27,081 bases of DNA from a virus, in the IMG/VR virus record IMGVR_UViG_3300003321_000852, positions 1 through 27,081 of that record. One strand, given 5' to 3'. Position numbers and translations under genes: made by a program. The notes below the pieces were generated by a model. That model was not told where the DNA came from. It worked only from the letters and a program-made list of their open reading frames with translations, and did no database searches. This document shows, piece after piece, positions 341-20,110 of the stretch (its first letter is position 1; the number at the start of each line of letters is the position of its first letter).

Positions 341-2980
341 CTACAGAGCGTCCTTCAGTGTAGTCAGTGACACACCCAATTGATCTGCTATCTCAGCCTG
401 TGTGTAGCCAAGATTGTCCATCGACCGCGCACGGTCCAGCATGGTAGCAGTCATCTTGATTGGTGTGCGTGGTGTAGCCAGTTCCTTGATCCTGTCTTGA
501 TCCGCGTTCAACAGGATCTTCTGCAGAGTGTTGTTACTGACCGCACCTGCCTGGATGGCTGCCCATTCCTGATCCGTGATGTCGATACGCTTCTTGCCTG
601 CGCCTGTGCGAACTCGAGCTTTCGCTAGTTCTTGTCCTTGAATCTTCTTGAGTTCGATTGCGTCCATGTCGGGATTGGCAGCCTGTCTAGCACGGACGGC
701 GGCATTTGCTAGAAGCTGGGCTTGTCTTTCGAGAGGCGCGTTCTTCTGGGCCGTGTCTAGTTTGACCCGGAGGGATTCAACCTCACGTGAATAGGCCACC
801 TTTGCAGATGGGCTGTATGGATTAGGCTTGGTGTTGACTGCGATCTGCCTAGCTTTGTTAGCCAGGGCCTTCAACTTGTTCGAGTGATCCGCGTAGATGC
901 GCTCGATGGTGGTGCCCGATGACAGGGTGTGGGCATTGTCGGTCTCTGCCAACTTGGTTGAGCGCTCACCACGAAGAACCACACGGCCCTTCTTGTCGAT
1001 GTATGTAGCGCCCGTATTGACAAAGACCTTCTTGCCAGTGGCCTTGTCTACAGGACCGCCTTGTGCTGCGGGGCGGGGCTTTCTTTCCGGAACGTGAATG
1101 TCCGATCGAGCGCGAGAGATCAGCGTTGCCGCGCCAGCACGAGGGCCGCCTTGATACTTGGCCTTCAGTTGCGCGATACCATTGTCAATCGCGGATTGCT
1201 TCCAATTGAGGTTGTGCTTTTCCGCATCGATGACAACCATGGAATGCCGAACAGCTCGAGCAAGCTCTTCTTGTTTGGCGCCATGAATCGTCATGTCTGT
1301 GATGAGATTGGAGATCTCACCCATTTGTGTTGCCTTGGTTCTAGCCGACATGCGTTTCATACCCTCATATGCTGGATACGAACGCTGCGGATCGAACCCC
1401 TTCAGACCGTCCAGTGCAGGTGCGGTCTTCACGCGGTTGTGATTGTTCGGGATGACCAGAACGGTATCACCATCGAAGTCTGCACCTGACAGACGTTCTG
1501 CCACCTTCGAGTGGATACCGACTGCGTCTTTCGCATTTCCCAAAGCCCGCTTTGCTTCAGGATGATTGTTGTTGACGGTGAGTTCGGGGATCTCGAACAC
1601 GCCACCGTGAGGATAGCGAACTAGCGCAACACGTTCGCCGTTCCTGAAGTTGGGTGCGTAGATCTCGTTCTGCTTCAATGTGTTGATCGGGAGAATGACA
1701 TTCGAGCGCTGGCGAGGAAGAGCCGCGGCCTTCAAATGAACAGCCGCAGAGTCAGTGCCATCGGCAAAGCTTTCCAACAAACTCTGGCGGACAGTCGGGT
1801 TCGTCAACTTCATGATGTCGTCGAACTCGCGCTGACGCCGTTCGTACGTCATATCGAGTTGCTGCTTGGCCAAGGCAGGGCTTTGCTTGGACAGCATCTG
1901 CGAAGACAGGTTCTTGGACCACTTGTCCCAATCGCCTTCTTCATTGACGATGTTCATGACGGACGTGACCTTGTGAGTCTTCGGATCCACCTTCTGGCGC
2001 ACGGTGGCGCCGAACGGATTCTCCGGGTCGTCCTTCAAGGACTTCATCGCGTCGAGCTTGTTGCCCGTGTTCTTCTTGTTAGTGTTGAATACAAGGTCAA
2101 CGCCAGCCGGCAGATCGTCCTTGTACATAGCCATACCTTTAAGGTAATGGGTACCATCGACTGCAATCCGAACCTGAGCGTATCGAGCACTACCAAGAGA
2201 GATGTCAGGTACGCCAGGTCGAACATGAATAACGCCGTCTGAATCAGCACCACCCTCTTCAGCATAACGAACCTTGACTCGCTTGCTGCTGATGGAGAGC
2301 GGGGGCTGGATTCCGATGTAGGATCGACCGCCGTCTTCAGAGAACGATCGGATCTGTCCAATGTTCGCACGATTTTGTGACACCTCGGAATACGGAATGC
2401 CAGGCGCCGCCAACACCTTGAGTGTGGTTTGTTTGCCGGTACCGAGCTGCTTGACCTTCAAGTAGTAGACGTTGTAGCCCTCTTCTTGAAGCACGGCAAC
2501 CGCAGTGGCCAGCTTTGTCTGGCTGATTCCCAAGTGGTTCTCGACGCCGGTACCGATGTCGAGATACTTCTTCTGCGCGATCTGCCCCTTCAGCATGACA
2601 CTAGTGCTGTGCAGGACGTCACTGCGATCCTTGGCGCTAGGCTGCAGTAGAGCCCTAATCGTCGACTCGGGCTTGCCCATCTGTTCGGCAATCGCCGTGT
2701 TGGACATTCCCTTGTCGCGAAGACGCTGCGCCATGTTGATATCGGCCTGACGCTCGGCGTTACGAGCAATCGATTTCGAAGCACGAAGCTGGGTAGTAGA
2801 AATGCCCATACCTTCGGCGATCTGTGCTTCACTCAGTCCCTGCTTCTGCAGCTGAGCCACATATCCCAAGAAACTCTTGTTGCTGGCGTTCTCAGGACCA
2901 CCAGAACCCCAAGGATACCTACCAGACCTACGGAGGATTCCGTAGTGCATGAGGTACTCGTCCTCCGAAAAGACGGTCAT
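341..2980 (-). CDS. Putative single-chain two-barrel RNA polymerase (YonO/QDE-1-like) with HTH domains
   Basis: This 879-residue protein carries the motif LSGADFDGDTVLV at about residues 498-510, matching the metal-binding NADFDGD signature of the beta' double-psi beta-barrel of cellular RNA polymerases and the DxDGD motif of QDE-1/YonO enzymes. The segment before it (LVRYPHGGVFEIP, 453-465, then GIHSKVAERL) parallels the beta' NRxP...HPLVC region. A Lys-bearing stretch (HYLKGMAMYKDDLP, 278-291) may be the other barrel, where the family keeps catalytic lysines. Helix-turn-helix-like segments lie at 41-66, 84-112 and 846-879, each with an A-E-x-M/L-G pattern. YonO of SPbeta is a known one-chain DNA-dependent RNA polymerase, so RNA synthesis for phage genes is the likely role. 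The ATG at 2980 overlaps the upstream stop as ATGA and has GGAGG eight bases before it. The DFDGD match is seen directly; polymerase activity and promoter choice are inferred. Confidence 0.72.
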   Translation of the reverse strand: MTVFSEDEYLMHYGILRRSGRYPWGSGGPENASNKSFLGYVAQLQKQGLSEAQIAEGMGISTTQLRASKSIARNAERQADINMAQRLRDKGMSNTAIAEQMGKPESTIRALLQPSAKDRSDVLHSTSVMLKGQIAQKKYLDIGTGVENHLGISQTKLATAVAVLQEEGYNVYYLKVKQLGTGKQTTLKVLAAPGIPYSEVSQNRANIGQIRSFSEDGGRSYIGIQPPLSISSKRVKVRYAEEGGADSDGVIHVRPGVPDISLGSARYAQVRIAVDGTHYLKGMAMYKDDLPAGVDLVFNTNKKNTGNKLDAMKSLKDDPENPFGATVRQKVDPKTHKVTSVMNIVNEEGDWDKWSKNLSSQMLSKQSPALAKQQLDMTYERRQREFDDIMKLTNPTVRQSLLESFADGTDSAAVHLKAAALPRQRSNVILPINTLKQNEIYAPNFRNGERVALVRYPHGGVFEIPELTVNNNHPEAKRALGNAKDAVGIHSKVAERLSGADFDGDTVLVIPNNHNRVKTAPALDGLKGFDPQRSYPAYEGMKRMSARTKATQMGEISNLITDMTIHGAKQEELARAVRHSMVVIDAEKHNLNWKQSAIDNGIAQLKAKYQGGPRAGAATLISRARSDIHVPERKPRPAAQGGPVDKATGKKVFVNTGATYIDKKGRVVLRGERSTKLAETDNAHTLSSGTTIERIYADHSNKLKALANKARQIAVNTKPNPYSPSAKVAYSREVESLRVKLDTAQKNAPLERQAQLLANAAVRARQAANPDMDAIELKKIQGQELAKARVRTGAGKKRIDITDQEWAAIQAGAVSNNTLQKILLNADQDRIKELATPRTPIKMTATMLDRARSMDNLGYTQAEIADQLGVSLTTLKDAL

Positions 2981-3537
2981 CCGTAAGCCTCCATCCTCAA
3001 CTGCTCGATGCGGGCATCAGCCACACGGATCTTGTCCATGATGCTGAAGATCGTCAGTGGGTCGCCATCGTAGAGGCGAACTTCGTCGTTCTGGTAAATC
3101 CGAAATTCCATCTCGATGGCGTTAGGACTCACGTCATATTCGAGGCAGAACAACGCTGCGTACACTTCGAGCTGAGTCACCGAGGTGGGATTCACTCCGG
3201 TCTTCAGATCATGGATGCGCAACATATTCTTGCGGAAAGAGATGGCGTCTGCTGTGCCGTAGCAGTTCAAAGAGTAGAACAACGTTTGCTCGGGGGTCAT
3301 CCGAAACCCGATGGCATCGTTCACGTAGGCGTTCAATGTCGCTCGAGTATCCGGAAGTTTCTGCCCCAGAACAATCAGATCCTTGGCCAGGTTGTGTAGC
3401 GCAGTTCCCCGGGCTGCGGCAAACGACTTCATGATGGCCGCATCGATCTGATCTTCGTTGTAGTTCACCCAATGATATTTGCTCGGGCTCAGCAAAGCGT
3501 GACTACCGCTAAGCCCCGAATGCTGCTTGAATCTCAT
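2977..3537 (-). CDS. PD-(D/E)XK nuclease, Cas4/RecB-like
   Basis: The 186-residue protein has the order of motifs expected of Cas4/RecB-type exonucleases: a His in RGTALHNLAKDL (H48), an acidic motif CYGTADAIS (D97), the catalytic D-x-K in IHDLKTG (D110, K112), and a Gln in TQLEVYAALF (Q122). Such phage enzymes usually process DNA ends in replication or recombination. No four-Cys iron-sulfur cluster is evident, which separates it from true Cas4, and no cas genes are nearby. Its start overlaps the end of the VRR-NUC gene by 29 bases and its stop overlaps the RNA polymerase-like gene, so the three form one translationally coupled unit. A GGGGCAGG stretch precedes the ATG at 3537. Confidence 0.8.
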   Translation of the reverse strand: MRFKQHSGLSGSHALLSPSKYHWVNYNEDQIDAAIMKSFAAARGTALHNLAKDLIVLGQKLPDTRATLNAYVNDAIGFRMTPEQTLFYSLNCYGTADAISFRKNMLRIHDLKTGVNPTSVTQLEVYAALFCLEYDVSPNAIEMEFRIYQNDEVRLYDGDPLTIFSIMDKIRVADARIEQLRMEAYG

Positions 3538-3805
3538 CGAGCACCTGCCCCTCGTTCTCAGGGTAGATGGTCGCTGTGTAGCTCATCTCGCCAAGAAGTT
3601 CTAGATAGTATTCCTGATTCGGCCTGTAAGGCTCCTTGGCACTTCTCTTAACCTCCAGCATGACCCAGTAGGTGCCGTACAGAATCGTCAGGTCGGGGAT
3701 GCCCTGGATATACTGCTCGTCGTTCTTCAGAATGAAACAGCCAGGAAACCGCATGGCGATGCGATCGATCAGTCCACTCTGATAGTCTCGCTCGAGCTTA
3801 CCCAT
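3509..3805 (-). CDS. VRR-NUC domain nuclease
   Basis: This 98-residue protein is essentially one VRR-NUC domain, the PD-(D/E)XK type found in FAN1 and in stand-alone phage nucleases that cut branched DNA. Visible motifs are KNDEQYIQGIPDLTIL (D38 in the GIPD turn), MLEVKRSAKEP (E-x-K, the catalytic E and K) and the following PNQEYYLELL helix with the usual Gln. The ATG at 3805 is preceded by AGGGAGGT at seven bases or less, a strong ribosome-binding site. It is the first gene of a unit led by a TATAAT-containing promoter at about 3858 and is followed by the Cas4-like nuclease. A role in resolving replication or recombination intermediates is inferred from the family. Confidence 0.85.
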   Translation of the reverse strand: MGKLERDYQSGLIDRIAMRFPGCFILKNDEQYIQGIPDLTILYGTYWVMLEVKRSAKEPYRPNQEYYLELLGEMSYTATIYPENEGQVLDEIQAAFGA

Positions 3806-3896: not shown

Positions 3897-4385
3897 TTAG
3901 ATCACCCACTCGAAAGTCTGAAACAGAGGAAAGACGTAAGTCTTGTTGTAGATGGACAACACCACATCGTTGTACAACACGCCGCGATCGAACACGACAT
4001 CCCACACAGTATCGTAGATGGTTCCGGTGTAGATATTGCGAACGGGATGCGGATAGTCGGGCAGCGTGAGTTTGAATTGCTCGCGGTGTCGCATAGCGAA
4101 CCACTTCGGGCGCCACATCAGATTGGCGGCTCGACAGTTGCCCTTGTCGCCATCGAGATAGATGGGCGTGTTGAATGTCTGACGCGGTCGATCGACGAAT
4201 GCCTCTGCCACGAGATGAGCAAGACTGCGATTGTACAGACGTCCTCCCGCAAAGAACGCCACCGTCAGATTGCCGTCTCGCGTGCGGTTGATCTTTCTCT
4301 CTTTGCCGAAGCGATCGTTGCGAACCTTCCCTTCGTCGCTGATCGAGTATCCGGGGAACTCTCTGACCGGGAGCCATCGCTCCAT
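3897..4385 (-). CDS. NUMOD4/HNH-like protein with altered HNH motif
   Basis: The N-terminus (W4, PGYSISDEGKVRN) fits the NUMOD4 DNA-binding motif of HNH homing endonucleases. The following AHLVAEAFV and IYLDGDKGNCRAANLMW (residues 75-91) match the HNH core, but the usual His of the HxDG motif is Tyr (IYLDGD), while the later Asn of NL-W is kept. Catalytic activity is therefore doubtful; a DNA-binding or regulatory role is possible. I chose the ATG at 4385 because GGGAGG stands just before it; a TTG 21 bases further up has no such site. The gene is isolated by AT-rich DNA on its upstream side and a promoter on its downstream side, which fits a mobile or independently regulated gene. Confidence 0.65.
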   Translation of the reverse strand: MERWLPVREFPGYSISDEGKVRNDRFGKERKINRTRDGNLTVAFFAGGRLYNRSLAHLVAEAFVDRPRQTFNTPIYLDGDKGNCRAANLMWRPKWFAMRHREQFKLTLPDYPHPVRNIYTGTIYDTVWDVVFDRGVLYNDVVLSIYNKTYVFPLFQTFEWVI

Positions 4386-4440
4386 GGTGCCTCCCAACTT
4401 TGCCAAGATTTTTCGCCGAAAAAACTTTTCTAGTGCTTTA

Positions 4441-4575: not shown

Positions 4576-5760
4576 TTACATGGTTGTAAAGAAATCGGCC
4601 ATGTTGAAGTCTCGCTTGTCCACGAACGCCTGTCTCAGAGCCACATCGATCGGCGCCTTCGATAGCGGAACGTAGTAGATCAAGTGAGCAAACGGCGTGT
4701 TGAGCCGATCAATTCGGCCGTAACACTGCTCCGTCAGCTTGTACGAGGGGTTCTGCGAGTAGAAAAACATGGTATTTGTCTCAATACATTCCCATGCTTC
4801 GGCCCCTGCAGTGTACTGAACCAAGTACAACCACGTGTCTGTTTTGGGTATTTCTTCGTGTTTATGCCCATTCCATTCTGCAACGGGGCGTGTCTGGATT
4901 GTCCGAAGTATCTCCAATTCATAGTCGAAATTGTAGAACACAATCAGCTTCGGACAGCTCTCCATCTTCCTCAGCAAGGTCTCAAACCGGCTAGGATGCG
5001 TTGCAACCACTCGTCGAGCCAGCATGTAGACCTCAGCAGAGGATCGACACGGCTTACTTTTGTACGGATTCCACCGTTTTTTCATCACCAAATCCATCAA
5101 TTCCTCGTCGTATTCGACCGGAATCGCGATGGCGTGGCGCTTCGTGTGCTTCTCGTAGGGCATCACGACGGTGATCTCATTCCGTCTCTTGATCAAGGTT
5201 CCCGTAGAAACATAGCGATCCACCGCAGGGAATTTCGTGTACGACTTGAATATCACGTGCTCTCGCAGGAACTCCGTCCGGTTGCGGTAGAAACCATTCG
5301 CAATGAAGACGGGGATGTAATCCATCCAACTGTCGCCAGGAGTCGCAGATAACAAGATCCACGGGTTGTTCTTGGCAATCTTCAGAAAGCTCTTGACCCA
5401 TCCGCCTCGTCCGATTAGTCGTTGTTCGTCAAAGATGAAAAATGCATTCGTGACGTCTTGGTATTTATGGATGTTATTCCATGAATCGACAGTCAGCAGG
5501 CCCGCCGTAGACGTCGCATATGCATCGTTTTTGGTCCCCACACCCCAACTCACAAACTCTCTCTGCCAATCCAGACTGTCCCTCTTCTTGGCTGTCGTGA
5601 TCACCACCACGTTCGCGTCCGCCCACACCTTCATGTAGTACGCCGCTGCTACTCGGCTCTTCCCGCTCCCCACTCCTCCGCAGAGGATGCAGCCGGATTT
5701 CAATCGCCCCAAAGCCTCCATTTGATGCGGACGGAGCTTCTCTTGCCATGACATCAACAT
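4576..5760 (-). CDS. SF2 DNA helicase (DEAD/SNF2-like)
   Basis: Motifs of superfamily 2 helicases are present in order: RPHQMEAL (Q-motif-like), Walker A GGVGSGKS, Walker B FIFDEQR in place of DEAH, motif III-like LLSATPGDSW, and motif VI QCYGRIDRLN near the C-terminus. It is about 394 residues from the chosen start, short but normal for phage SNF2-like helicases, which remodel replication or recombination DNA. The frame is open up to a GTG at 5847, but that codon has no ribosome-binding site; the ATG at 5760 follows CCAGGGGTCG, and a second ATG at 5754 is equally possible. The residues before 5760 in this frame look non-coding, whereas another frame upstream looks like a Zn-ribbon (see next entry). 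A leader with stem-loops precedes the gene. Confidence 0.85.
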   Translation of the reverse strand: MLMSWQEKLRPHQMEALGRLKSGCILCGGVGSGKSRVAAAYYMKVWADANVVVITTAKKRDSLDWQREFVSWGVGTKNDAYATSTAGLLTVDSWNNIHKYQDVTNAFFIFDEQRLIGRGGWVKSFLKIAKNNPWILLSATPGDSWMDYIPVFIANGFYRNRTEFLREHVIFKSYTKFPAVDRYVSTGTLIKRRNEITVVMPYEKHTKRHAIAIPVEYDEELMDLVMKKRWNPYKSKPCRSSAEVYMLARRVVATHPSRFETLLRKMESCPKLIVFYNFDYELEILRTIQTRPVAEWNGHKHEEIPKTDTWLYLVQYTAGAEAWECIETNTMFFYSQNPSYKLTEQCYGRIDRLNTPFAHLIYYVPLSKAPIDVALRQAFVDKRDFNMADFFTTM

Positions 5761-5881
5761 CGACCCCTGGAGTTCCGCAGAGAGGGCACCGCCCCTGATT
5801 GACCGAATCTTCTGCAAAGAGCAAGATCGTGCAGACGGGGTCCACACAGATGCAGGATGGCACCTGACTACCCAGTTCCAT
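5761..5881 (-). other. Zn-ribbon-like N-terminal segment, out of frame with helicase
   Basis: An ATG at 5881 has an excellent ribosome-binding site (GAGGAGAG three bases before it) and opens a frame with SCICVDPVC (Cys 10, 12, 17) and RCPLCGTPG (Cys 32, 35), the look of a small zinc-binding domain. This frame runs on to a stop at 5474 but after about residue 40 it resembles a shadow of the helicase. A +1 shift at the GGGG run at about 5766-5763 would join it in frame to the helicase as CPLCGTPGSMLMSWQEKL. It may be a programmed frameshift, a sequencing indel, or a short overlapping gene. Confidence 0.45.
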
Positions 5882-7792: not shown

Positions 7793-8014
7793 TCAGTCCT
7801 GGAGCAGCTGTCGATCGATTCGGAAAGTACCGTCGGGATTCTTGATGATCACATCGCCGAGCTGAGCGCGCTCGACCTCCGTCCCCACAGGGACGTTGAC
7901 CGCGGGGTAGGTCGCCGACTCGTCCAGCGCGTCATGCTGAACAACCCGGCGACCTCCACACCACTCCGCGATCTCTTCCGCATTGCTGCGCGTCAGAGTA
8001 CGGGCATCGATCAT
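7793..8014 (-). CDS. Minimal PGDYG-type protein, 73 aa
   Basis: This short protein is close to a bare PGDYG domain: SNAEEIAEWCGGRRV, a PAVNVPVG strand, then QLGDVIIKNPDGTFRID with the GD core at residues 53-54. The ATG at 8014 overlaps the stop of the ssDNA-binding-like gene as ATGA, so it is translationally coupled to it. The longer reading in this frame is a shadow of that gene. Its role is unknown; family members occur near DNA metabolism genes and tail genes of many phages. Confidence 0.7.
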   Translation of the reverse strand: MIDARTLTRSNAEEIAEWCGGRRVVQHDALDESATYPAVNVPVGTEVERAQLGDVIIKNPDGTFRIDRQLLQD

Positions 8015-8568
8015 GTCAGCTCGTACTCGCCATCGATGTAGTCCGGAGCCGCTTCCAGCTCGGGACGACGGCTCGGTGCTTCGAGAGCCTTGTTGTTTTC
8101 GACGTACGCGGTCCACTTCTGGTCGAGGTAGTCCTCGACGATCTTGATGTACAGCGAGTTCAGGTACGCCTTGATGCCCGACTTGCCGTTCACCGACCAC
8201 TGAGACGGATTGAGTGAGACATCCGCGGTCTCGACGTCCACCCAGTCCAGAAGCTCGACCTGCTCTTCGGGAACGTACGAGATTCCCCGTGTGGTGACCA
8301 GCGCGATCTTGGGCGGACGGACGCGATACGACACCGCCACTGGCAGATACGGCGTCGGCTCGTCGCCCTCGTCCCGCGGCTTGAGGTACTTGATGTTCCA
8401 GCCCTCGGCCTTGAGCTTCTCCGCGACCTCGGGCTTCTCGAAGATGATCGCGAAGTTCCGATCACCCTTGCGGTTGTAGACGTCTTCACGGCCCTCGAAG
8501 TTGCGGAAGGCGATCCTGATGCCGTCCACATCTCCCTCGAGCGTGATGTTGGTTCTGTCAGTCGTCAT
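8011..8568 (-). CDS. Probable phage ssDNA-binding protein
   Basis: The 185-residue protein has the shape of a phage single-stranded DNA-binding protein of the T7 gp2.5/Enc34 type: an N-terminal RNFEGRED...NRKGDRNFAII strand pair, GWNIKYLKPRDEGDE, a VSYRVRPPKIALV strand, then VNGKSGIKAYLNSLYIKI and an acidic tail ending DYIDGEYELT. Acidic C-terminal tails recruit replication partners in such proteins. Placement between the helicase-primase-polymerase and the SF2 helicase fits. The match is from remembered family pattern, not a search, so other OB-fold roles remain possible. The ATG at 8568 overlaps the end of a tiny upstream ORF, which probably provides coupling because its own SD is far away. 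Confidence 0.6.
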   Translation of the reverse strand: MTTDRTNITLEGDVDGIRIAFRNFEGREDVYNRKGDRNFAIIFEKPEVAEKLKAEGWNIKYLKPRDEGDEPTPYLPVAVSYRVRPPKIALVTTRGISYVPEEQVELLDWVDVETADVSLNPSQWSVNGKSGIKAYLNSLYIKIVEDYLDQKWTAYVENNKALEAPSRRPELEAAPDYIDGEYELT

Positions 8569-9788: not shown

Positions 9789-9938
9789 TTAGTCCTTCTT
9801 TTCTTTGTCGGCGAATTTCGCCAGCATCTGACCAAGTGTGGTATCCGGTCCGTTGAAGACTATCGCGGCTTCTACAAATTGCTCAGCCACCGCAAGACGA
9901 ATCTTCTGCGGGAGATGTAGCGCGATCCAATAGATCAT
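9789..9938 (-). CDS. Small hypothetical protein, 49 aa
   Basis: The ATG at 9938 overlaps the polymerase stop as ATGA and has GAGGAG eight bases upstream. The product begins MIYWIALHLPQKIRLAVAEQ, with a hydrophobic helix first and a charged tail (ADKEKKD). The tight coupling to the polymerase gene suggests a replication-linked accessory peptide, but this is inference. Confidence 0.6.
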   Translation of the reverse strand: MIYWIALHLPQKIRLAVAEQFVEAAIVFNGPDTTLGQMLAKFADKEKKD

Positions 9939-12900
9939 GCCACGAACTCCTCGTACGAGCCGAACTTCTCGATCTGGGCCTTGGCGTCCAGCGCCAACTT
10001 CTCGAAGTACTCCATGTCGATGTCGAGGTCCAGGCCCTTCGCTCGAGCCATCTCCTCCTCGATCCAGAAGAACCCCTTCGTGCCCGCAACGGCGTATTCC
10101 TTGCCGTCATACACCCTGATCAGAGTCCCCCCAGACCCAGAGGATTCCGTGACTGGAACGAATCTCCCCGTGCGTCCCACGAAATGGGGGCCACTGGGGA
10201 ACTTCAGAACCATGTGGCCCTTGGAGACCTGCTTCGTCTCCGCCAGATCCGTTCTCAGAATCGGTTCCCCGTCGAACAGAGTCTTGAACACGTACGGGAC
10301 CTTGAATTGCGTACCAACGGCCGTCCATTCGACATCATCTCCGTGCTTGCTCTTCGCGATGTACACGGCGTCGTTCACGAGACAGAACTTCTCGTACGTG
10401 TTCTCGTGCTCGAACGTGTAGCCGAACTTCTCGCCGAAGTTGAAGACCATGTCGATGATCTCGTCGTCGGCATCGGCGATCTTGATGGAGTCGGTCTTGA
10501 TGTGGACAACCTGGTAACCGAGCTCCTGCACGTACTTCTTGAGCTCGATCATGAACAGAGCACCGCGCTTGGCCGCGATGTTGTCCTTGTTCCGCTTGTC
10601 CCTGAACGGACTGTCGAACGTCGCCGACGTCAGGCCGTACACGATGTTGATTACGATCTTCAGCGCGTACGACAACGCCGTGGCATTGCCCTCGTCCTCG
10701 AGGTAGGGGGCCAATTTCCCGCCCAGCATCTCCCGGGCCGATGTGTAGTCCCGGTGCTTGATCGCGAGCCGGGCCTCCATCAACGCCTTGAAGTTCTGGG
10801 TGTACCGATCCCCGAACATATTCAAGTGCACGATCGACGTCGGGTGCATCGACGCGATGTCCAGCAGAGCCACGTTCTTGTACATACCCGGTTCGGCGTA
10901 GACGTAGCCGCCCTCACCAACCGTCTCACCCATGTACGTGCTCTTGCCCGCCTCATACACGTAGCCGTCGAATTCCTCCGACAGATCCGTGTAGACGAAG
11001 GAGCTCTGCGGGTTCTTGTCGCCCTCGAAGATGATCTGGGCGGTGTGGTTCGCTGTCGTGTGGTTGACGGTCAGGCCACTGAGCTCCGCCAGGATCTTTC
11101 GCGCCACGAAGTCCTGCGCGCGGTCCTTCCACGTCGCCTTCGTCGCGAAGACATCATTGCAGCAGTAGTCCGCAACGAGCTCGAACTTCTCCGGCGGGAC
11201 CGGCTCGTCCCAAGGCAGATCCAGTTCCTGGTGGGGAACACCGAGCTCGATCTCGAACTTCTTGAGCGACTGCTTCTTGCTCGAGAACTCGTAGATATCC
11301 GCGTACGACAAGTGATACGCCGCCGCGAATGTCGCCCCCGGCCGGTTGGCCATGAGCCGCTTGCTGAGGTCGTACAACTGCTCGTTGCTGTAGCCCAGGT
11401 ATCTGCCGTAGCAGATGTGGTTGTCGTAGTTCCGGTTGAAGAATCCGACCAGCCTGAACTTGAACAGCATCTCCATCTCCGCGGGAGACGGATTGATCAT
11501 GCGCACAATCGTGTCGGAGTCTTCGTAGGACCAGCAAACCACGAAGAGGTTGGGGAAGACTTCGACGTCGAAGAACACGATCGGTGCCTCAACATCGGGC
11601 GCCGGATTGAGCTCAGTACCGATGCTGGGAGGTACGGCCTCACTAGAGAAACGCATACGCTGGACCTGCTGAAGGCAGTACATGGCGTGATTCGAACTGT
11701 TGTTCGCGAATGCGACCAGCTTGGGCTTGAGGTCGGACACGTCGTAGTTGAGACCATTGGCGTACGCGTCGTCGAGGATCTTCTTGATGAAGTCGATCGA
11801 CGGCTTGGTGCCGGGATGAATCTCCTTGCGAAAATTCTGAGCGATGAGTTGTCGCAACCCCGCTTCGCTCTGGATGGTTTTGGTGGGGAGCACGGTCGAC
11901 TTCTCCTTGATGGGAAGACCACTGTTGATGGTTGCGATGGGAACAGTATTGCACTTGGAGAGACGCCGGCGCAGTGCTGACTTCCCCGTGAATACCTTGA
12001 CCTCGATTCCCTCGGAGAAGAGTCGAGAGAGAGTCGTGACATCACCATCATAAAGGTAATGAAGGTGAACACCATTGCCGGACTTAGAGAGCTCAGCGTA
12101 CGTCGGAGGCCACACGGACGCCGCTTGGAGATTGCGTGCAAGGGCCTTGACACCGTTGTCTCCCTTCAAATCGAAATCAATCACAATGTGGTTGTCGGGC
12201 GGCCGAACGTAATGCTCCCGACTGGTATCGATATCAGAGAGCGTGGTGGTTACCTTTGCCCACGACGTCGAAGGAATTCCTTCGTCGGTTGCGTACTGCG
12301 CAGGACAGTCCGCGAGAACCTGGTCGAGAAGAGAAGCCTTCTCCTCGATGACCAGCGAGAAAACGTCATCGTCAGGCGCCGCAGTTTTGAACTCAGCAGC
12401 AGTGAAACCCGAATAATAGTTACGAACAGTAGCTCCATCGACTTCCGCCCTGTCTTTGAATTCGGCGAAGTAATTCCGCAATTCCTCACGGAACTTGTAT
12501 TGGGGTAGTGCTTTGTCAATCCCGGTAGAGCTGCAGTATTCCTTGTACATCTCATAGGCTTGCTTGAGCGTCACGCCATCTTGATATTTGAACACATCGT
12601 ACGACGCCTCGACGAAGTTGAAAATGATGTCCGTCTGGAACATCATCTCCGTCGGTCGGTAATCGTTGTAGTAGTTCTTACCGAGGCTTCGGTAGACGTC
12701 CAGACAATGTTGCGCGATGGCCCCGAGCTCGAAATCGATACGACTCAAAAGCGTATTGTAGAGATTTGCCGGAATTGTCACTCCAGTCGGATGAATATCG
12801 ATCAAGCGGCGAATCAAGCCCGACTTTGCATCGGAGATCTTGACTGCTTTGTTCGATCCCACAAACAAGAGCGCATTCACTCGGCCGGTATAGCTCGGCT

Positions 12901-13669
12901 TGTATTTCTCGTTCATCCTGATGTCTTCGTGGGACACGATAGAATTCAGGAGTGTGTTGTCGTCGATTCTGGAGAGATCCCCATCGTGCTGGATCGCAAC
13001 CAAGGGGTTTGATTTGAAGGCTTCCGTCGCGAAGCTGTTGTTGGATGAACCCAACGCTTTCGCTTCGAATGTCGCTGTATACCCCTCGAAGAGTTTCTGA
13101 AGAATCGAAATGACAGTACCTTTGCCGCTCCCAGGCTTCCCATAGAAGACGAAGAACTTCTGGATCTTCTTCGAATCCCCGGACACTACGGCTCCAATAG
13201 CCCACTCGATTTTCCTCCTCTCTTCGACAGAATACAACGTCCCGACTAGTTCGTCCCATGCAGAATGGTCACCCGCCGTCAACGAATATGGCAGCTTGCG
13301 ACTCACGTAATCCGACCGCTTGACCTCATCATTGGCGAACGTGAGACTTTCGTCCAGCTGTCGCGCGTTGTCCGAGATATTCGCCAGCAATGACCGATAC
13401 GCAATCCACGATTTGCTGCCGAAGTTGCGCATGGTCATGATACTCACATCACCGGGGAGCGTCTTCGCATGTTCCTGCAGCTCCCTGTCCACGATCCGAG
13501 CGACGTCATACTCATCCGTGGACCACAAACCCGCTTCCTCGTCCCAGATGGCATAGAACGCGCGTCCGCGTACCATCAGGTCTTTCGATTTTCCTACAAC
13601 AAAACTGGGGGAGAGAATAAGACCTCCGTCTTTCTTCTCCGTAACATGCATGTTGTAGAAGTCCACCAC
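9935..13669 (-). CDS. Fused D5/SF3 helicase - AEP primase - family B DNA polymerase
   Basis: This 1244-residue protein appears to carry a whole replication engine. Residues 1-160 resemble a D5_N region. SF3 helicase motifs follow: Walker A GKPGSGKGT (177-185), Walker B-like VAIQHDGD (224-231) and LLFVGSNKAVK with RR (267-289); a winged-helix-like segment lies at 365-420. Residues 450-580 look like an AEP primase: VIDFDLK (D498, D500), SKSGNGVHLHY with H535, then IEVKVF. Next come exonuclease motifs DVEVF (D701, E703), NRNYDNH (745-751) and YCCND (D839), and polymerase motifs DIASMHPTSI (937-946), KIVINIVYG (1004-1012) and IKTDS (1057-1061). Motif C has KTD where many family B enzymes have DTD; the catalytic Asp is kept. 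GTG at 13669 or 13666 follows a GGGGGGA ribosome-binding site. The helicase half uses AT-richer codons than the polymerase half. Confidence 0.85.
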   Translation of the reverse strand: MVDFYNMHVTEKKDGGLILSPSFVVGKSKDLMVRGRAFYAIWDEEAGLWSTDEYDVARIVDRELQEHAKTLPGDVSIMTMRNFGSKSWIAYRSLLANISDNARQLDESLTFANDEVKRSDYVSRKLPYSLTAGDHSAWDELVGTLYSVEERRKIEWAIGAVVSGDSKKIQKFFVFYGKPGSGKGTVISILQKLFEGYTATFEAKALGSSNNSFATEAFKSNPLVAIQHDGDLSRIDDNTLLNSIVSHEDIRMNEKYKPSYTGRVNALLFVGSNKAVKISDAKSGLIRRLIDIHPTGVTIPANLYNTLLSRIDFELGAIAQHCLDVYRSLGKNYYNDYRPTEMMFQTDIIFNFVEASYDVFKYQDGVTLKQAYEMYKEYCSSTGIDKALPQYKFREELRNYFAEFKDRAEVDGATVRNYYSGFTAAEFKTAAPDDDVFSLVIEEKASLLDQVLADCPAQYATDEGIPSTSWAKVTTTLSDIDTSREHYVRPPDNHIVIDFDLKGDNGVKALARNLQAASVWPPTYAELSKSGNGVHLHYLYDGDVTTLSRLFSEGIEVKVFTGKSALRRRLSKCNTVPIATINSGLPIKEKSTVLPTKTIQSEAGLRQLIAQNFRKEIHPGTKPSIDFIKKILDDAYANGLNYDVSDLKPKLVAFANNSSNHAMYCLQQVQRMRFSSEAVPPSIGTELNPAPDVEAPIVFFDVEVFPNLFVVCWSYEDSDTIVRMINPSPAEMEMLFKFRLVGFFNRNYDNHICYGRYLGYSNEQLYDLSKRLMANRPGATFAAAYHLSYADIYEFSSKKQSLKKFEIELGVPHQELDLPWDEPVPPEKFELVADYCCNDVFATKATWKDRAQDFVARKILAELSGLTVNHTTANHTAQIIFEGDKNPQSSFVYTDLSEEFDGYVYEAGKSTYMGETVGEGGYVYAEPGMYKNVALLDIASMHPTSIVHLNMFGDRYTQNFKALMEARLAIKHRDYTSAREMLGGKLAPYLEDEGNATALSYALKIVINIVYGLTSATFDSPFRDKRNKDNIAAKRGALFMIELKKYVQELGYQVVHIKTDSIKIADADDEIIDMVFNFGEKFGYTFEHENTYEKFCLVNDAVYIAKSKHGDDVEWTAVGTQFKVPYVFKTLFDGEPILRTDLAETKQVSKGHMVLKFPSGPHFVGRTGRFVPVTESSGSGGTLIRVYDGKEYAVAGTKGFFWIEEEMARAKGLDLDIDMEYFEKLALDAKAQIEKFGSYEEFVA

Positions 13670-16800: not shown

Positions 16801-16825
16801 TGCATTTCCTTTGTCGTAGGGTCTC

Positions 16826-16850
16826 ATTATAGACCCTGTAATTCTTGCGA
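16826..16850 (-). promoter_or_regulatory. Promoter of the repeated TTTACA-TATAAT type
   Basis: Minus strand: TTCGCAAGAATTACAGGGTC then TATAATGAGACC. The TTCGCAAG, TTACAnGG, TATAAT and GAGACC elements keep the same spacing as in the copies near 19200 and 19664. The -10 lies 26 bases before the start codon of the gene at 16800, leaving a very short leader. Confidence 0.7.
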
Positions 16851-19176: not shown

Positions 19177-19199
19177 GGCTTATCCTTTCGTAGGGTCTC

Positions 19200-19226
19200 A
19201 TTATAAGCCATGTAAATCTTGCGAAT
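19200..19226 (-). promoter_or_regulatory. Promoter of the repeated TTTACA-TATAAT type
   Basis: Minus strand: TTCGCAAGATTTACATGGCT then TATAATGAGACC, 24 bases upstream of the gene at 19176. This is the best copy of the motif. There is no -35 at normal distance; the conserved TTTACATGG abuts the -10. Confidence 0.75.
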
Positions 19227-19640: not shown

Positions 19641-19663
19641 GACGTTTCCTTTCATCGGGTCTC

Positions 19664-19690
19664 ATTATAGCCCTTGTAAAACTTGCGAAT
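19664..19690 (-). promoter_or_regulatory. Promoter of the repeated TTTACA-TATAAT type
   Basis: Minus strand: ATTCGCAAGTTTTACAAGGG then CTATAATGAGACCC, 24 bases upstream of the gene at 19640, with all four conserved elements at the usual spacing. Confidence 0.7.
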
Positions 19691-20062: not shown

Positions 20063-20084
20063 GGCTTATCCTTTCGGTGGTCTC

Positions 20085-20110
20085 ACTATAAGCCATGTAA
20101 ATCGTGCGAG
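20085..20110 (-). promoter_or_regulatory. Promoter of the repeated TTTACA-TATAAT type
   Basis: Minus strand: CTCGCACGATTTACATGGCT then TATAGTGAGACC, 23 bases upstream of the gene at 20062. The -10 is TATAGT and the upstream element is CTCGCACG, both one or two changes from the best copy at 19226-19200. Confidence 0.65.

Follow-up and report, generated by a model that had tools for sequence, protein, structure and literature searches.

Can a single phage polypeptide unwind, prime and copy DNA? The question is raised by a long open reading frame on the minus strand of the DNA analyzed here, a 27,081-base stretch (hereafter the window) that is the entire virus record IMGVR_UViG_3300003321_000852 and probably only part of a longer genome, so that further replication genes may lie beyond it. 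An initial annotation had read motifs of four activities in one stop-free frame, and all four regions were found between 9935 and 13669, where 1244 codons and a stop codon run without interruption (Table 1). They follow each other in the order SF3/D5-type helicase, AEP primase, four-helix domain, 3'-5' exonuclease and family B polymerase (PolB). The annotated frame stands, but its start at the first GTG (13669) is probably one codon too early: relatives open with VDFY or MDFY, and the distance from an AAGGGGG ribosome site suits GTG 13666 better, which would give 1243 amino acids. In a profile search, PHROG 4210 ('DNA polymerase') spanned residues 2 to 1243 with 1921 bits. This end-to-end match, together with motifs that are invariant in 105 relatives, rules out chance motif matches. 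No Rfam RNA or tRNA was found in the window.

Table 1. Positions of the replicase, its domains and motifs, neighboring genes and promoter-like elements in the window; residue numbers count from GTG 13669, and fractions give conservation among aligned relatives.
Feature	Position	Strand	Basis or remarks
Whole replicase gene	9935..13669	-	GTG 13669 or, likelier, GTG 13666; stop 9935-9937; 1243-1244 aa
N-terminal SF3/D5-type helicase with winged-helix end, residues 1-427	12389..13669	-	DUF5906, Pox_D5, structure matches
Walker A YGKPGSGKGT, residues 176-185	13115..13144	-	K183 = GP55 K189; K in 105/105
Walker B region IQHDGD, residues 226-231	12977..12994	-	D229 103/105, D231 103/105
Candidate arginine finger R287-R288	12806..12811	-	105/105 each; sensor 1 = N273
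AEP (PriS-like) primase domain, residues 446-598	11876..12334	-	profile matches, motifs
AEP motif I DFD, D498/D500	12170..12178	-	D500 = GP55 D509; 105/105
AEP motif II SKSGNGVHLH, residues 528-537	12059..12088	-	H535, H537 105/105
AEP motif III EVK, E556/K558	11996..12004	-	E 105/105, K 104/105 (one gap)
Four-helix domain, aHD equivalent, residues 599-675	11645..11875	-	Y642 = GP55 Y655, F654 = GP55 F667
3'-5' proofreading exonuclease, residues 697-860	11090..11581	-	D701/E703 = GP55 D712/E714
Family B polymerase core, residues 861-1244	9938..11089	-	profile and structure matches
PolB motif A DIASMHP	10841..10861	-	D937 = GP55 D949
PolB motif C KTDS, residues 1058-1061	10487..10498	-	K, T, D, S each 105/105; KTDS in GP55 too
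ssDNA-binding protein (PF24083)	8011..8568	-	relative of 1706 gp66
SF2-type helicase	4576..5847	-	relative of 1706 gp67
VRR-Nuc-type endonuclease	3509..3805	-	relative of 1706 gp68; VRR-Nuc name from Petito record
Cas4-like exonuclease	2977..3537	-	relative of 1706 gp69; Cas4 name from Petito record
Single-chain RNA polymerase, PHROG 4291	341..2980	-	relative of 1706 gp75; linked gene, outside replicase
Promoter-like element copies	16820-16850, 19194-19224, 19658-19688, 20079-20109	-	

Single-base errors can in general join frames, and the first alternative to weigh was that an error of sequencing or assembly had fused distinct genes for helicase, primase and polymerase. The replicase lies in one frame at 106 of 107 loci, the window's own copy counted. 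Among phage records, 366 match it and 252 do so over at least 80% of its length, many of these being isolate genomes; full-length matches come mostly from Arthrobacter, Gordonia and Streptomyces phages and also from Lactococcus, Rhodococcus, Curtobacterium and Microbacterium phages. The one relative in two frames belongs to Bifidobacterium phage BitterVaud1 (locus L003, 2968-7598), the sole split member seen, in which a helicase-AEP-exonuclease part of 959 aa and a polymerase part of 368 aa are cut immediately ahead of PolB motif A, with a 213-aa frame of unknown family lying between them; in this single genome the polymerase may be naturally split or interrupted by an insertion. The isolate genomes rule out an erroneous join for the family, and an orthologue, GP55, has been expressed and purified full-length (PMC12205980), leaving the artefact a vanishingly small probability.

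The N-terminal region matched the helicase-core family DUF5906 at residues 175-288 (Pfam, E=4e-12) and the Pox_D5 winged helix at residues 347-419 (E=7e-4, slightly short of the Pfam cut-off). In an AlphaFold model of residues 1-700 (pLDDT 84.6), residues 1-425 superimposed on the SaPI5 primase-helicase (Z 21.5, 371 aligned, rmsd 4.6) and on poxvirus D5 (Z 18.6), and structure comparison also matched the helicase fold to the C-terminal region of NrS-1. Walker A, Walker B, a sensor 1 asparagine and a D5-like fold with a winged-helix end are all present, as is a candidate arginine finger, R287-R288, assigned this role by analogy.

The AEP region is more divergent. As a lone sequence, the window protein matched Prim-Pol weakly (Pfam, E=0.24, short of the cut-off), whereas 35 of 42 relatives matched this family (best 3e-4, in a scan up to E=1) and 40 of 42 matched a phage DNA primase family (best 2e-8). 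The hallmarks of the AEP superfamily are present, namely DxD, an SxH-like motif, an acidic third motif and a profile match, and the DxD, GxHxH and ExK residues are invariant or nearly so in the 105 aligned relatives. The helicase and AEP regions, either of which would have refuted the initial annotation by failing to match its family, both match. Structure prediction bore out the helicase and exonuclease-polymerase folds; for the AEP region, which was included in both multi-domain models, helicase and polymerase entries took up the structure match lists. A profile search of the PDB with the AEP domain alone gave no AEP hit, no plasmid relatives of the domain were found, and phage records showed the AEP-aHD part solely within the fused family (253 records, the listed organisms being those with the full-length family).

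Directly after the AEP domain the window protein has, instead of the helix bundle of PrimPol, a four-helix domain that corresponds to the aHD of GP55. The model places helices at residues 602-613, 621-637, 645-656 and 662-670, in the position of the GP55 aHD, and these carry Y642 and F654. Catalytic motifs are kept across the 105 aligned relatives; Y642 is replaced by Phe in 12. The divergence of the AEP sequence, and the frequency with which these phages have an RNA polymerase of their own, would suit a domain that no longer primes and persists as a regulatory or DNA-binding remnant, with primers made by the phage RNA polymerase (341-2980) or a host primase. The invariance of the catalytic residues across the relatives argues against such a remnant, which we regard as very improbable.

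The C-terminal part contains the Exo I, II and III residues, polymerase motifs A, B and C and the fold of a proofreading family B polymerase. The exonuclease residues D701/E703, D749 and Y835/D839 are invariant among the 105 relatives, and the PolB part matched phrog_1252 (E=1e-42). An AlphaFold model of residues 425-1244 (pLDDT 87.2) resembled family B polymerases with an exonuclease, namely Pol alpha (Z 17.3), KOD (Z 17.1) and E. coli Pol II (Z 15.7). Motif C of family B polymerases is usually DTDS, and the lysine of KTDS stands at the first aspartate; since the same KTDS occurs in GP55, an active polymerase, this lysine alone is no argument against activity.

Profile, motif and structure matches place helicase, primase, exonuclease and polymerase regions in one chain, an arrangement for which there is a biochemical precedent. 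GP55 of Lactococcus phage 1706 is a four-in-one replicase of 1317 aa, purified full-length, for which UTP/dTTP-dependent helicase, RNA primase, polymerase and 3'-5' exonuclease activities were assayed (Zhang et al., NAR 2025, PMC12205980). It copies ssM13 completely de novo, requires its aHD for RNA priming and dimerizes through its helicase part; its primase and polymerase can cooperate in trans, with hand-over of the primer, and removal of the PolB part almost abolishes helicase activity (PMC12205980). The supplement to that paper lists more than 1000 homologues (PMC12205980).

The window protein is about 40% identical to GP55 over its whole length (1218 aligned residues) and shares with it the order helicase, PriS-like AEP, aHD and exonuclease/PolB in one chain as well as the KTDS motif C. 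With 1244 aa it is shorter than GP55 (1317 aa), part of the difference being an insertion close to the C-terminus of GP55 that the window protein does not have. All seven GP55 mutant positions that were mapped are identical in the two proteins (GP55/window: K189/K183, D509/D500, Y655/Y642, F667/F654, D712/D701, E714/E703 and D949/D937). We consider it highly likely, with a probability of roughly 93%, that the window protein is an orthologue of GP55-type four-in-one replicases and would work as GP55 does. By orthology it would have the same activities and a GP55-like mechanism, and the earlier proposal that unwinding, priming and copying of DNA could reside in one protein gains support from the activities shown for GP55 (PMC12205980) and the conservation of its mapped mutant residues. 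The N-terminal SF3/D5-type motor would open the duplex and give the polymerase strand displacement; the AEP domain with the four-helix aHD would lay short RNA primers along the single strand so exposed; and the C-terminal family B polymerase would extend them while the exonuclease domain proofreads. Primers could be handed over within one chain or between chains, and the phage itself would supply a single-stranded DNA-binding protein (SSB).

A further alternative concerns the state of the chain in the cell. The two linkers, residues 428-445 and 676-696, are variable and modeled with low confidence. In five close pairs of relatives drift was limited to them; every domain kept its first and second codon positions far better than its third. 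Such linkers could be the sites at which a genuine fusion is cut into helicase-primase and polymerase pieces; the cooperation of GP55 primase and polymerase in trans would be compatible with separate pieces, and BitterVaud1 provides a natural split, though within the polymerase. The linker sequences, however, do not show the conservation expected of a cleavage site and no phage protease was found among the ORFs scanned. GP55, moreover, was isolated intact and its helicase activity nearly disappears upon PolB deletion. We therefore consider processing as a polyprotein very improbable and favor a replicase that acts as one four-activity chain.

How does this replicase compare with other systems? 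The closest proteins are annotated as 'DNA primase/polymerase' in phages of Gordonia, Rhodococcus, Arthrobacter and Streptomyces, such as Petito gp64 and ReqiPoco6 gp072; they are about 50-63% identical to the window protein over their full length, and sequence divergence is the sole difference. The ReqiPoco6 record annotates a primase part belonging to COG3378 together with a PolB part resembling that of a Lactococcus phage. No assays of these actinophage orthologues were found in the literature searched. The window phage is a relative of these actinobacterial phages and, unlike the Lactococcus phage 1706, is environmental, with relatives that infect Actinobacteria. The PrimPol-helicases of NrS-1 and pRN1 (ORF904), poxvirus D5 and SaPI5 likewise combine AEP with a D5/SF3-type helicase, and the helicase folds match. 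In proteins of the NrS-1, ORF904 and D5 type, AEP lies ahead of the helicase and there is no PolB. The window protein, by contrast, begins with the helicase and has a separate proofreading PolB for extension; with the domain order reversed and this PolB present, assignment to the NrS-1/ORF904 type was rejected. The small, separate PolB enzymes known from phages of Enterococcus, Pseudomonas and Listeria are related in their exonuclease and polymerase part; their matches span about 12-29% of the window protein, and neither a helicase nor a primase matches at the same place.

The genes around the replicase also correspond to those of phage 1706. Both phages carry an SSB, an SF2 helicase, a VRR-Nuc gene, a Cas4-like nuclease and an RNA polymerase, and these shared companions support a co-inherited replication module. 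The SSB was present in 96 of 105 related loci, and the PF24083 form in all eight related records checked. Neither a separate primase nor another DNA polymerase appeared among the family hits of the window ORFs scanned, and the fused protein would be the main replicase of its phage. The RNA polymerase (879 aa) matched PHROG 4291, labeled RNA-dependent RNA polymerase, with 1349 bits; it contains ADFDGD, is YonO/QDE-1-like on motif grounds and has helix-turn-helix segments at both ends. Its orthologue in Gordonia phage Petito is gp92. Between the VRR-Nuc and SF2 helicase genes lies an HNH/NUMOD4 homing-endonuclease-like gene (3897-4406, minus strand), relatives of which occur at 36 of 105 loci.

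A repeated promoter-like element, TCGCA-N4-TTACA-N5-TATAATGAGACC, lies upstream of many genes in these phages. A total of 237 copies were counted, spread over 60 of the 106 replicase loci (L004, L005, L006, L021 and L030 among them); every copy lies on the strand of the replicase, and the opposite strand has none. A ribosome site usually follows, and then a start codon at a median of 18 nt downstream. The search, in which an unrelated cyanophage served as negative control, returned no copies from shuffled DNA and did not find the element in phage 1706. The element alone retrieved 26 long contigs. The replicase is present in 23 of these, and 21 have a large or nearly full match to the RNA polymerase of the phages, as raw counts uncorrected for background. 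In seven of the 26 (G007, G019, G021, G023, G026, G028 and G031), a further frame standing by itself, about 190-330 aa long and roughly 2-3 kb upstream of the replicase, matches the helicase part of the family. The string TATAATGAGACC had no match among the top-ranked results of a literature search, and the promoter of YonO was reported as undetermined in 2017 (PMC5467207). The element is a candidate promoter for the single-chain RNA polymerase of these phages. A broader and rather doubtful reading joins these observations: the phages would form a group with a self-contained replication and transcription kit, comprising the one-chain replicase, an SSB and a YonO-like RNA polymerase that recognizes TCGCA-TTACA-TATAATGAGACC. 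A second part of this reading concerns the replicase alone: its actinophage branch could depart from GP55 in what fuels it (ATP), in how it oligomerizes or in the type of primer.

The fusion of four activities in one chain is already known from GP55, published in 2025, and belongs to a widespread phage family; the novelty of the replicase is therefore low, and the replicase finding alone leaves current understanding as it is. The promoter-like element associated with the RNA polymerase of these phages may merit more attention than the replicase itself. What the replicase adds is that environmental phages with actinophage relatives, too, carry the one-chain replisome known from a dairy phage. 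It provides a new sequence, of 1244 rather than 1317 aa, for testing de novo, strand-displacing DNA synthesis, and enzymology of the family can use the invariant KTDS motif C and the aHD as constraints.
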